DNA from: Bacteroidaceae bacterium
Lineage (GTDB): Bacteria > Bacteroidota > Bacteroidia > Bacteroidales > Bacteroidaceae
Length of the DNA stretch: 64,000 nt
Direction of reading: 5' to 3'
NCBI GenBank assembly: GCA_017483605.1
Contig: JAFUWG010000048.1
Span: 1 to 64,000 of the forward strand
Shown: in pieces, positions 6,006 to 52,268 of the stretch
Position numbering within the stretch: position 1 is the stretch's first letter
Layout: each line of letters starts with the position of its first letter
Position numbers and translations under genes: made by a program
Notes under the pieces: model-generated
Told to the model about the DNA's origin: nothing
The model's input: only the letters and a program-made list of their open reading frames with translations
Databases searched by the model: none

Positions 6006-6057
6006 AAAAACTCAAAAACTTAAAAACTTAAAAACTTAAGAACTTAAAAACTTAAAA
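6006..6057 (+). repeat. 8-bp tandem repeat (CTTAAAAA family), copy A
   Basis: About six consecutive units of CTTAAAAA with minor variants (CTCAAAAA, CTTAAGAA) end one base before the start codon of the DUF5606 gene. Related tracts stand in front of 19284 and of clpB. Confidence 0.8.
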
Positions 6058-6601: not shown

Positions 6602-7132
6602 CACCCCTCACCACCACAAACAGCAAACATCCCACCACACACTCCGCAACCGCATCACCACATACCCCGCAATAGGACAAAATGACACACTCGATACCTC
6701 CGAAGTGGTGTGACTCACACCGCCCAGGTGGTCTGAGTCACACCACCGAGGCGGTCTGACTCAGACCACTTTCGACGCTCTCTGCGTGTCATTTTTGCCA
6801 AGACGAAATTGACATCCCCCCCCCCAAAAAAAAGGGACAAAGATGAACCTCCGCATGACTTGTGAAAAATCTAAATCTGCTAAATCATCGCGAAGCGATA
6901 TGTCGTTTTTTATCCCGACAAGTGCCTACGGCACGATTAAGCAGATTGAACTGATTTGGCATCGAAGGCATTGGACATCGTTTCCGAAGGACATGGGTGA
7001 GAGAGTTGAGTGAACATTGAGGGCCTTTCCTGTTCAATGTTCGATAATGTGATATCGTGGGAGCGATTTGATGGAAAAATAAAGAATGTTTAACAGATTT
7101 CATCCTCTAAAGAAATTTTTGAGGCTTTTTAT
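6602..7132. other. Non-coding gap before the secreted-protein gene
   Basis: No credible gene. It holds palindromic element copy 1 (6671-6816), a C10-A8 homopolymer junction (6816-6833), and then unremarkable sequence to the promoter at 7133. Confidence 0.6.
6671..6816 (-). repeat. Triple-palindrome intergenic element, copy 1
   Basis: Three 15-bp palindromes of the form GGTSTGASTCASACC (centres at 6714, 6737 and 6760; 23-bp spacing) are enclosed by outer inverted repeats (AAGTGGT...ACCACTT, and AAAATGACAC...GTGTCATTTT). The outer borders (AATAGGACAAAAT... and ...GAAATTGACATC) match copy 3 in inverted orientation, which defines a unit of about 146 bp. It resembles a MITE or REP/BIME element and has no coding capacity. 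Confidence 0.8.
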
Positions 7133-19172: not shown

Positions 19173-19277
19173 TCTCAAAACCTAAAAACTTAAGAACCCA
19201 AAAACTTAAAAACTTAAAAACTTAAAAACTCAAAAACTCAAAACATACAAACTAAAAACATACAAACTAAAAACTCA
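19173..19277 (+). repeat. 8-bp tandem repeat (CTTAAAAA family), copy B
   Basis: A run of CTTAAAAA and CTCAAAAA units from about 19173 to 19277 fills almost the whole spacer between the nuclease gene and the next start. The second half contains two ACATACAAACTAAAA variants. Confidence 0.8.
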
Positions 19278-21892: not shown

Positions 21893-22036
21893 CATCTCTT
21901 TTTCGTCACCCCTAAAATGGTGTGCTGGAAGCCTCAAAAGTGGTGTGAGTCACACCGCCTCGGCGGTCTGAGTCACACCACTTGGGCGGTGTGACTCAGA
22001 CCACTTTTGAGGTATCGAGGGAAGCATTTGGACACC
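21893..22036 (+). repeat. Triple-palindrome intergenic element, copy 2
   Basis: Palindromes GGTGTGAGTCACACC (21942-21956), GGTCTGAGTCACACC (21965-21979) and GGTGTGACTCAGACC (21988-22002) are spaced 23 bp centre to centre. They are enclosed by a 13-bp perfect inverted repeat CCTCAAAAGTGGT...ACCACTTTTGAGG. The left and right flanks resemble copy 3, so the orientation is plus. It lies between the terminators of two convergent transcription units. The outer borders are approximate. Confidence 0.75.
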
Positions 22037-24235: not shown

Positions 24236-24297
24236 TGAGTTTAGTTTTTGAGTTCTTGAGTTCTTAAGTTTTTGAGTTTTTAAGTTCTTAAGTTCTC
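24236..24297 (-). repeat. 8-bp tandem repeat (CTTAAAAA family), copy C
   Basis: Read on the minus strand, seven units of the CTYAARAA type fill the spacer between the S41-like gene and clpB and end about 9 bases before the clpB start. Confidence 0.8.
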
Positions 24298-34382: not shown

Positions 34383-34563
34383 ATTGTTGGATTACTAAGG
34401 TTACCTAATCATTTTTTTCAGTTCTCATTCCACAAGTCTCACTTTTCGTCATCAGCAAGATTTTCGACTCATTACAAATGCAAAGTTAGGCAATATCTGT
34501 GAAAGAAAAAAATCTTTTCTGTTCTTTTTCCATCCAAATGGGTGCTTATTCATTCTTTTTTCT
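34383..34563. other. Divergent intergenic region
   Basis: Non-coding. It contains the leader and promoter of the minus-strand salvage unit, and AT-rich sequence upstream of the yhhQ promoter. Confidence 0.5.
34481..34488 (-). promoter_or_regulatory. Putative -7 box for the minus-strand GT-DUF4922 unit
   Basis: TAACTTTG on the minus strand, 98 bases before the start codon. Only a T-rich match is seen at the -33 position. Confidence 0.5.
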
Positions 34564-34571
34564 TACCTTTG
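34564..34571 (+). promoter_or_regulatory. Putative -7 box of the yhhQ-queF operon
   Basis: TACCTTTG fits the consensus and puts transcription start near 34577, about 14 bases before the aptamer array. A TTTG -33 box is not evident. Confidence 0.55.
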
Positions 34572-34590
34572 CAGCCGATTTACAAAAATC

Positions 34591-34680
34591 CGAGTGCCTG
34601 ACTACCTCGTAAAAACAGGCGTGTACTAGTTCAACCACGTAAAAAACCAGCGAGTGCTTGACCACCTCGTTAAAAACAAG
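34591..34680 (+). promoter_or_regulatory. Three tandem preQ1-I riboswitch aptamers
   Basis: Three head-to-tail 30-nt units. Unit 1 (34591-34620): P1 CGAG (34591-34594)/CTCG (34606-34609), pseudoknot P2 GCCTG (34596-34600)/CAGGC (34616-34620). Unit 3 (34651-34680): P1 CGAG/CTCG (34651-34654/34666-34669), P2 CTTG (34657-34660)/CAAG (34677-34680). Unit 2 (34621-34650): P1 CGTG (34620-34623)/CACG (34636-34639), P2 CTAG/CCAG with one A-C mismatch. All three keep the preQ1-I contacts: U right after the 5' P1 strand (U6 of the B. subtilis RNA), AC right before the 3' P1 strand (A16-C17), and the A-rich tail with A before C (A30). The array ends 6 bases before the yhhQ start, so translational control is likely. 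Confidence 0.8.
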
Positions 34681-34686
34681 AAAACA

Positions 34687-35415
34687 ATGAAAACAAACAA
34701 ACAAGTGAGCGTGTTCTTCATGCTCGCAGGAATTCTTTTCTGCATCTGCCTCGTGGCAGCCAATCTTCTCGAAACCAAAGTCTTCCGTGTATGGGGTAAC
34801 ATTTCCCTGACCTGCGGTTTCATCGTGTTTCCCATCTCTTACATTCTCAACGACGTCATTGCCGAAGTGTGGGGCTACCGCAAGGCCCGACTCATCATCT
34901 GGGTAGGCTTCGCCATGAACTTCTTCGTCATGGCATTGGGCGGCATCGCTTGCATCCTGCCCCCCATCGAAGCAGGTGCTGACGAAGCCTTCAAGCAGGT
35001 GTTCACCTTCGCGCCACAGATTGTCGTGGCAAGCCTCATCGCCTTCATCGTCGGTTCGTTCCTCAACGCACTGGTGATGAGCAAGATGAAGATGGCAGAC
35101 CGCAATAAGGGACACTTCGACTACCATTTCTCCATGCGTGCCATCCTCTCCACCTTGGCAGGCGAAAGTGCCGACAGCCTCATCTTCTTCCCTCTGGCTT
35201 TCTATCTGTTTCCGCTCATCGTGTCGGGACAGCCCGTGTTGACGTTCGACATCATGCTGGGACTGATGGTCACACAAGTGGTGGCAAAGACGGCGTATGA
35301 AATCATCGTGCTGCCGCTGACCATCCGTGTGGTGAAATTCGTGAAGCGTGTGGAAGATACGGACGTGTACGATGAGCACATCAGTTACAGTGCATTCAAA
35401 ATCAGTGAAATATAA
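34687..35415 (+). CDS. yhhQ: Queuosine-precursor transporter (YhhQ/DUF165)
   Basis: A 242-residue membrane protein with about six spans, of the YhhQ family, which imports preQ0/preQ1. Motifs include [12 protein letters not shown], the signature [19 protein letters not shown] (about residues 50-68), [20 protein letters not shown] and [13 protein letters not shown]. The start at MKTNKQVS, just after the third aptamer, is preferred to the ATG at 34654, which lies inside that aptamer. queF begins one base after its stop. An array of preQ1 aptamers in front is exactly what such a transporter would be expected to carry. Confidence 0.92.
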
Positions 35416-35416
35416 C

Positions 35417-35884
35417 ATGAACAATTTACGTGAAAAGGAGGGGCTGCAATCCCTCGGCAAGAAGACAGAGTATCGCCAAGACTATGCCCCCGAGGTGTTG
35501 GAAAGTTTCGAGAACAAGCATCCCGACAACGATTATTGGGTACGCTTCAACTGCCCCGAGTTCACTTCTCTCTGCCCCATCACTGGTCAGCCCGATTTTG
35601 CAGAGATTCGCATCTCCTACTTGCCCGACCGCCGCATGGTGGAGAGCAAATCGCTGAAACTCTACCTGTTCTCGTTCCGCAACCACGGCGACTTCCACGA
35701 GGACTGCGTGAACATCATCATGAAAGACCTCATCCGGCTGATGGATCCGAAGTACATCGAGGTGGCGGGCATCTTCACGCCACGCGGCGGCATCAGCATC
35801 TATCCTTTTGCCAACTATGGCCGCCCCGGCACAAAATACGAAGAGATGGCGAACTATCGGCTGATGAATCACGACATGAACTGA
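35417..35884 (+). CDS. queF: NADPH-dependent 7-cyano-7-deazaguanine reductase (QueF)
   Basis: Reduces preQ0 to preQ1 in queuosine synthesis. The 155-residue protein is the short, unimodular (YkvM) type. The substrate-binding and catalytic region [16 protein letters not shown] has the thioimide-forming Cys at C53 and the Asp at D60. The QueF NADPH-binding motif is [21 protein letters not shown], followed by [14 protein letters not shown]. It is cotranscribed with yhhQ (one-base gap), so its product preQ1 should act on the aptamers upstream. Confidence 0.94.
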
Positions 35885-35897
35885 GCGTTGTTCGTCG

Positions 35898-35966
35898 TCG
35901 ATGAACAATTATTCAACGTCGATGAACAAATATTCAACGACGACGAACAATTATTCAACGACGACG
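35898..35966 (+). repeat. 21-bp tandem repeat after queF
   Basis: About 3.5 copies of a 21-bp unit (GAYGAACAAWTATTCAACGWC, given degenerate). In one frame it would read as repeated VDEQLFN/DDEQLFN heptapeptides, but no gene is supported there. Confidence 0.65.
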
Positions 35967-36044
35967 AACGACTTCGCCAACGGGGAAAACCCAGAAGAGG
36001 TTGCGGAGATGAAGGTCAAGCGGCAGTGGAGCATCCCATAAAAC

Positions 36045-52049: not shown

Positions 52050-52268
52050 GAGAGGTGGGCACTTCCACACGAAACCATTCCTGATGTCAATTTTGTCTTA
52101 CCCTAAAACGGGGCACCGTGCACCTCTGAGGTGGTCTGAGTCACACCACCGAGGCGGTCTGAGTCACACCGCCCATACCGGTGTGACTCAGACCACCTTT
52201 GAGGCTTCGGGCGTGCAATTTTGTCCTATTCCTAAGCATCCATTCGTTCAAAACTCCTTCCTCATTTT
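52050..52268. other. Gap carrying palindromic element copy 3
   Basis: Non-coding apart from the repeat element. An open frame reaching back from uvrA to 52199 runs through the repeat and is not considered coding. Confidence 0.6.
52083..52230 (+). repeat. Triple-palindrome intergenic element, copy 3
   Basis: Palindromes at 52133-52147, 52156-52170 (both GGTCTGAGTCACACC) and 52180-52194 (GGTGTGACTCAGACC), spaced 23 and 24 bp. Its borders (GATGTCAATTTTGTCTT at the left, CAATTTTGTCCTATT at the right) are the reverse complements of the borders of copy 1. It ends 38 bases before the uvrA promoter. Confidence 0.8.

Follow-up and report, generated by a model that had tools for sequence, protein, structure and literature searches.

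The preQ1-I type II riboswitches of Thermoanaerobacter tengcongensis and Bacillus subtilis are H-type pseudoknots with an A-rich L3 and serve queuosine genes; section 4 of PMC11625349 defines the type by an AC before the 3' strand of P1, and gives it an A-rich L3 and a G11-C30 pair above preQ1. A 2022 survey of tandem riboswitches, which applied Infernal, Rfam 12.2 and published alignments to environmental data and to the 44,270 named species of RefSeq 80, gives glycine and guanidine-II in its tables as paired aptamers sharing a single platform, and its Table 3 places preQ1-I, II and III among the classes not found in tandem (PMC9481103). The initial annotation of the DNA studied here knew of no described three-unit preQ1-I array, which agrees with that table, and no such array was among the matches listed by our literature searches on preQ1 or queuosine in tandem or Bacteroidales settings.

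The window, i.e. the whole 64,000-nucleotide stretch of a Bacteroidaceae contig that we analysed, carries three abutting pseudoknot units in the leader upstream of yhhQ-queF (34591-34680, + strand; Table 1). We consider this a real and conserved three-unit array whose sequence fits preQ1-I type II, in an arrangement unreported in the literature searched. Within each unit the order is the same: the 5' strand of a 4-bp P1, U, the 5' strand of P2, a loop ending in AC, the 3' strand of P1, an A-rich stretch, and the 3' strand of P2, beginning with C. The initial annotation had described three seamless 30-nt units; their number and abutment hold, but their lengths are not equal. The rest of its anatomy stands, i.e. 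P1 plus a 4-5-bp P2 in units 1 and 3, the U after the 5' strand of P1, the AC before its 3' strand and the A-tract followed by C in all three units, and the single P2 mismatch of the middle unit. A fifth G-C pair is possible in P2 of unit 1, at the cost of the first base of unit 2. Across the 18 triple arrays of the wider comparison, the P2 of the middle unit has two mismatches in 12, one in 3 (including the window) and none in 3. The box upstream of unit 1, which we take to be a promoter of the Bacteroidota -7 type, has a TAnnTTTG-like counterpart in 23/23 leaders listed, with a spacing of 16-19 nt in 19 of them. A possible conserved 5' hairpin in the interval from the box to unit 1 was considered and rejected, as it folds in only part of the leaders. 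Downstream, queF is likely the second gene of an operon with yhhQ.

Table 1. Features of the yhhQ-queF leader and operon, in window coordinates (34,564-35,884)
Feature	Position	Strand	Details
Candidate promoter box TACCTTTG	34564-34571	+	sequence
Aptamer unit 1 (predicted)	34591-34619	+	29 nt; R2 match 23.9 bits
Unit 1 P1	34591-34594/34606-34609	+	CGAG/CUCG
Unit 1 P2	34597-34600/34616-34619	+	CCUG/CAGG
Aptamer unit 2 (predicted)	34620-34650	+	31 nt; R2 match 35.3 bits
Unit 2 P1	34620-34623/34636-34639	+	CGUG/CACG
Unit 2 P2	34626-34629/34647-34650	+	CUAG/CCAG, one mismatch
Aptamer unit 3, start-proximal (predicted)	34651-34680	+	30 nt; R2 match 42.6 bits
Unit 3 P1	34651-34654/34666-34669	+	CGAG/CUCG
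Unit 3 P2	34657-34660/34677-34680	+	CUUG/CAAG
Unit 3 A-rich L3, UUAAAAA	34670-34676	+	holds A at -12/-13 from yhhQ ATG
yhhQ, queuosine precursor transporter	34687-35415	+	TIGR00697 95.9 bits (cut-off 50.95); PF02592 154.8 bits
queF, preQ1 synthase	35417-35884	+	TIGR03139 173.9 bits (cut-off 86.9)

Other repeats occur in the window. Just 3' of queF lies a 21-bp tandem repeat of 3.4 copies (35899-35969), and tandem arrays of 23-bp units with a common GGTGTGAGTC-like core, partly in opposite orientation, are found at 6705-6769, 21942-22006 and 52121-52170; compared by eye, these three are perhaps one dispersed repeat family. Tandem repeats of 8 bp, of the AAAACTT/AGTTCTTA type, are located at 6006-6057, 19177-19275 and 24243-24296.

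The observation of a three-unit array is confirmed as real by a model (R2) built from 35 single-unit sequences of other genera, without any sequence of the window's genus. Run over the whole window with filters off, R2 gave matches up to E 1 that are exactly the three units, with E 4e-7 for unit 3, 1.4e-5 for unit 2 and 0.0038 for unit 1. In the whole 3.06 Mb assembly the three units rank 1-3 (E 1.9e-5, 6.7e-4 and 0.178), with the next match at 1.1. By itself, then, unit 1 lacks significance at the genome scale with R2 (E 0.178), and it is secure because its position adjoins the other two units. Among 20,000 dinucleotide shuffles of the 124-nt leader, our parsing grammar recovered one unit in 374 and a tandem pair in none, and the same grammar found one extra lone unit per strand in the window. 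The nested MFE fold of the leader is no better than that of shuffles (z 0.04), which is unsurprising given pseudoknots of only 4 bp.

What are these units? We predict, with strong support from their sequences, that they are preQ1-I type II aptamers, as the initial annotation had proposed: P1 and P2 covary, the contacts are kept (partly by construction, see below) and queuosine genes lie downstream. Covariation was assessed on 103 distinct units from 138 matches, contributed by 95/96 sources (L098 was without a match). Standard pairs fill 95.7% of the P1 and P2 cells in these units (P1 99.8%, P2 91.7%). Cells changed on both sides number 78 against a shuffled mean of 24.8, and the covariation score is 0.270 against 0.075, values as high being found in 0/500 shuffles in both cases, with the caveat that related sequences can exceed shuffles without any structure. 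Double changes affect 5/8 base pairs, a figure equalled in 30/500 shuffles. Sliding the partner strand by 1-3 columns destroys the covariation signal, with scores falling far below. Among 73 units the P2 types include CUUG/CAAG, CCUG/CAGG, CUGG/CCAG, AUAG/CUAU and GUUG/CAAU.

The bases expected to read the ligand were placed by mapping the Tte residue numbering by hand onto the units, a correspondence that we assume. All 103 distinct units have the U after P1, the G before this U, the G-C pair above the ligand and the last three A residues of L3; the C before the 3' strand of P1, the base that would read preQ1, is present in 102 (one gap), and the A before that C in 100 (2 C, 1 gap). This fixity is partly by construction, because the sequences underlying the model were chosen by a parser that demanded paired P1 strands, the U, the C preceding P1, the A-rich tail and the C after it; it made no demand on the G before U, the A before C, the G of the G-C pair or P2 pairing. 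In the majority of arrays the P2 of unit 2 pairs poorly, with a mean of 2.5 of 4 pairs, and because of this the unit may bind weakly or not at all. In 16/18 triple arrays the P1 strands follow the order CGAG, CGUG, CGAG, so that neighbours differ, and misfolding between units 1 and 3 is possible since their P1 is identical. Strict orthogonality of the units was considered and rejected: units 1 and 3 share P1, and the P2 strands are non-orthogonal.

The Rfam search that had been suggested as a check of this assignment came out negative: the sole RF00522 match in the window was unit 3, with 12.1 bits where the cut-off is 39. The model stayed below the cut-off in 20 loci of relatives (best 26.1 bits), rose above it in 0/21 genomes (that of the window, 12 from the genus and 8 from the order), and exceeded it in 1/14 controls. 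We read this failure as poor coverage by the model rather than missing biology, because 103 distinct units share the anatomy described above; the cut-off is a database threshold, which we take as no biological defining feature. A curated model for the yhhQ and queC units of Bacteroidales seems to be missing, and as RF00522 stays below its cut-off on the units, the array family would be easily overlooked.

The distribution of the units was followed in two sets of leaders. A tblastn-confirmed search gave 41 YhhQ loci (L022 and L036, which cover only the inside of the gene, were left out), and 80 further leaders from family genomes were added, some of these genomes overlapping the 41 loci. From the 120 leaders parsed, the window included, 103 gave units, amounting to 76 distinct sets: 54 of one unit, 4 of two and 18 of three, where the 54 include the four mis-parsed rows L071, L074, L077 and L079 as well as L008, whose upstream units are decayed. 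The 17 leaders without a unit under the grammar are four of remote YhhQ (L038-L041), ten that were positive in another search, two found by a second model, R1 (L066 and L121), and L114, which lacks a unit in either. Alignment A1 is without three odd units and has seven extra ones that were read by eye, alignment A3 is without rows with a long L1, and R1 was built with units of the window's genus included.

Within the genus, R1 matches 31 of 45 genomes at E up to 0.5, with three adjacent matches in 18, two in 7 and one in 6, one of the latter being weak (E 0.092, with a DnaA-like ORF adjoining); 14/45 have no match, and 7 of these 14 are also without a YhhQ match. Tandem units are conserved in many members of this one rumen/gut bacterial genus, and their number varies between 1, 2 and 3, as the initial annotation had thought worth asking. 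In the family sample R1 matches 237/399 genomes, compared with 321/399 for YhhQ, and a unit stands before only part of the YhhQ genes in the family; in the order and phylum samples the figures are 70/393 and 8/395 genomes. No adjacent pair of units was found outside the genus in the family, order and phylum samples, where a weak neighbouring unit could be missed in such large scans because the stricter filters lose weak matches. Two R1 matches outside the genus occur in five family-sample and eight order-sample genomes, one of them common to both. Wherever both sites are listed, as they are for all of these genomes but G344, the two are widely separated or sit on separate contigs.

The genes beside the units were identified next. 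At 20 order-level sites, chosen by hand from the R1 order matches, the next gene by NCBIfam is YhhQ in 13 and QueC in 6, and the twentieth (L169) precedes QueC as read by eye. In an earlier batch of 20 regions, 12/12 sites outside the genus with E below 0.01 are near queuosine-related genes or a hydrolase, preceding YhhQ in 8 (by eye), QueC in 2, QueD in 1 and a PF01156 nucleoside hydrolase in 1. Four weaker sites (L139, L140, L141 and L146) had no queuosine gene in the one ORF read beside each, and look like chance matches.

Several individual leaders deserve mention. Single-copy preQ1-I-like units stand before yhhQ and queC in many Bacteroidales families (e.g. L152-L171, L128-L138). The unit L133 (G117:C42:84026-84055, - strand) stands before a nucleoside hydrolase of PF01156 whose start resembles that of a lipoprotein; it is likely a leader duplication, because its flank is nearly the same as that of the yhhQ leader 14.5 kb away, and such a duplication suggests a queuosine-salvage role. 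A mention of iunH under preQ1 control is found in PMC3766115. In the queC leaders L157, L159 and L169 the start codon lies about 100 nt or more past the unit, and a different expression platform is likely there because of this distance. The yhhQ leader of G388 (L066) has a single unit with a hairpin, CCTTCAGTCGTTGAAGG, inserted within L2, and a Bacteroidales-type yhhQ with one unit (L033) sits in a contig labelled Mailhella, probably misbinned. In the window's own genome (G000; assembly 81.5% complete) QueC is below the cut-off and yhhQ is followed directly by queF, several genus members having yhhQ-queC-queF instead; a life style of preQ0 salvage is possible for this genome. QueC falls below the cut-off in 14/45 genus members, the window's genome included, and we rejected the idea that arrays are tied to the loss of de novo synthesis, as array carriers occur both with and without QueC.

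All three units are conserved far above neutral sites. The comparison covered 105 pairs drawn from the 15 triple arrays, among 18, for which a whole yhhQ was available. The array is 0.90 identical in all three bins of less than 90% protein identity, compared with 0.52-0.54 at fourfold-degenerate sites and 0.49-0.50 in the 80 nt 5' of the promoter box (shuffled level 0.48), and the unit means in these bins are 0.89-0.93, 0.84-0.85 and 0.94-0.96 for units 1, 2 and 3, respectively. In the bin above 90% (8 pairs) the values are 0.96 for the array, 0.74 for fourfold sites and 0.72 upstream; over all bins, mean identity is 0.89-0.95 for unit 1 and 0.84-0.94 for unit 2. Units at the same position are more alike (0.91) than units at different positions (0.74), from which it follows that the array is of old standing and that each member has stayed distinct; the same figures speak against recent copying and against concerted evolution. 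A YhhQ tree of 36 rows places the arrays in a single group, 24 rows in size, together with the single-unit leaders L018 and L019, and unit number changed several times. The unit of L019, missed by the parser, is that of L018. Inside this group, two-unit arrays precede the divergent YhhQ of L143 (G404) and L145 (G409), their units resembling 2+3 and 1+2, respectively, and units may have been lost or gained at either end of the array.

The leader has several like aptamer units and a single expression platform, the yhhQ start region. No terminator-like site was found within or after the array in 34400-34900, and transcription termination was rejected, the sole such site in that interval being 5' of the promoter box. 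The ATG of yhhQ lies 6 nt past the last unit in the window, and the first ATG 5-9 nt past it in 22/22 arrays; it is 4 nt past the unit in 34/54 distinct one-unit leaders (the four mis-parsed ones included). The 3' strand of unit 3 P2 occupies -7 to -10 from the ATG, and units 2 and 1, ending 37 and 68 nt before it, are too distant to cover the start themselves. According to PMC6847099, Bacteroidetes mRNAs are without Shine-Dalgarno sequences, and what tunes initiation is structure between -20 and +20 together with A residues at -3, -6, -12 and -13, the role of A-12/A-13 being described for Flavobacterium. The window has A at all four positions. In 72 distinct leaders (the mis-parsed L071, L074, L077 and L079 left out), -12/-13 fall inside the final unit's L3 in 69, and 67 have A at both, while A-3 and A-6 are kept in only 39 and 44, respectively.

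We propose that the leader consists of three type II preQ1-I aptamers in series, with one shared platform in the yhhQ start region. Each unit would be an H-type pseudoknot with preQ1 seated between P1 and P2. When preQ1 is plentiful unit 3 would close, its A-rich L3 folding into the minor groove of P1 and thereby hiding the unpaired A-rich stretch favoured by SD-less Bacteroidota ribosomes; since this loop doubles as the part of the leader that promotes initiation, ligand binding should conceal the initiation region, and import as well as reduction of preQ0 would be shut off. This suggests riboswitch action without Shine-Dalgarno pairing, by hiding an A-rich L3 that serves both the ligand and initiation. 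The stack of an H-type pseudoknot has the 3' strand of P2 and the 5' strand of P1 on one and the same side, which with zero linker lets a knot stack on the next one. On this geometric reasoning neighbouring units would stack coaxially, the end of each P2 abutting the next P1 via a G|C step and the three knots forming one rod, in which the units would stabilise one another such that less preQ1 is needed and the response is sharper. With P2 counted as 4 bp, 37/40 unit junctions have a linker of 0 and 38/40 a G|C step; with moderate confidence, we see coupling as the most likely reason for this fixed junction. From sequence, then, we infer preQ1 binding, translational repression, stacking and cooperativity, and find it probable that the start-proximal unit closes over the A-rich initiation region while units 1 and 2 reinforce it by stacking. 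A bolder form, which we put forward tentatively as something that may well fall short, is a continuous ligand-bridged rod (P1-preQ1-P2-P1-preQ1-P2-P1-preQ1-P2) that would bind three preQ1 cooperatively, its last unit closing the start.

Would three units be needed at all? In a simple model without coupling and with unit 3 alone controlling, the EC50 is 1 and the Hill coefficient 1.00, and upstream units change nothing. With unit 3 controlling and stacking of -1, -2 and -3.4 kcal/mol, the last being the GC/CG step of an ideal helix, the Hill coefficient becomes 1.37, 1.83 and 2.39 and the EC50 0.36, 0.12 and 0.026. We infer that serial aptamers could give a steeper or broader dose response, as the initial annotation had supposed. 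If any folded unit represses, the model reaches an EC50 of 0.26 and a Hill coefficient of 1.26 without coupling. Three independent aptamers might each lower expression, for example by blocking the approach of the ribosome, altering mRNA decay or hindering bS1 binding along the leader, a gain in sensitivity rather than true cooperativity that would fit the conservation of all three units; we find this somewhat unlikely, as it has no need of a near-fixed zero linker and G|C junction, and units 2 and 1, 37 and 68 nt off the ATG, lie beyond the low-structure region of -20 to +20 described in PMC6847099. Nor do we favour the idea that unit 3 is the sole working switch, with units 1 and 2 as duplicated leftovers or a structured 5' spacer. 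The 54 distinct leaders with one parsed unit (L008 and the four mis-parsed rows included), the weak P2 of unit 2 and a first unit that looks decayed by eye in one array (L008/L048) are what such a history might leave behind, but in the bins below 90% protein identity unit 1 retains an identity of 0.89-0.93 and unit 2 one of 0.84-0.85, against 0.52-0.54 for fourfold sites, and both keep the contact pattern, making this reading unlikely.

Perhaps the units differ in what they bind. The middle unit has its own L1 and P2, with an identity kept genus-wide (0.91 vs 0.74), and could read preQ0 or another 7-deazapurine, the leader then integrating precursor and product; according to PMC10622847, YhhQ transports preQ0 as well as preQ1, and the Tte aptamer, of type II, has a preference for preQ1 of only 17-fold. 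Yet the bases expected to read the ligand are identical in all three units, and P2 of the C[CU]AG type also occurs in the sole units of several genera, so that we rate this division of labour as very unlikely. That the repeat is no riboswitch at all, being instead a protein-binding element or a set of chance hairpins, is scarcely credible: RF00522 below its cut-off and an ordinary nested fold are in its favour, but the P2 covariation with its slide control, the queuosine gene context and the preQ1 contact pattern stand against it.

Should the stacked reading be true, the rod would be the first tandem preQ1-I and the first three-aptamer single-platform riboswitch within the literature searched, and a cooperative switch made by end-to-end stacking of pseudoknots from aptamers among the smallest known. 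One, two and three units before the same gene in one genus offer a natural series on copy number versus response; at 30 nt the units have a size within reach of synthesis, NMR and crystallography, and thanks to the zero linker their end-to-end stacking lends itself to direct tests. Beyond the array, the work brings to light a family of leaders in Bacteroidales, before yhhQ, queC and queD, whose scores are below the RF00522 cut-off wherever tested.

Glycine aptamers are larger than the 30-nt units described here. The tandem glycine riboswitch likewise joins several like aptamers to one expression platform (PMC9481103), but as two aptamers, whereas the array has three 30-nt pseudoknots and no linker. 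Triple-tandem c-di-GMP-I also has three copies of one aptamer in a leader; it is tabulated as pseudo-cooperative with several expression platforms, in contrast to the one platform of the array (PMC9481103). In the preQ1-I type I riboswitch of Carnobacterium antarcticus, for which positive cooperativity is reported, more than one preQ1 is bound per leader as well, with two ligands in the pocket of one aptamer (PMC8752633), where the array would hold one per aptamer. The preQ1-I type III riboswitch of E. coli yhhQ controls the same gene by covering the initiation region, as the array would, but is described as a single aptamer that buries the SD, has a three-nucleotide L2 and belongs to a type found almost only in gammaproteobacteria (PMC10622847). 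The preQ1-I type II riboswitch has the same U after the 5' strand of P1, AC before its 3' strand and G-C pair above the ligand (PMC11625349). Unlike the single-copy members of that type, the array has three abutting copies with a 4-bp P1, scores below the RF00522 cut-off, and would take as its platform an A-rich start region without a Shine-Dalgarno sequence.
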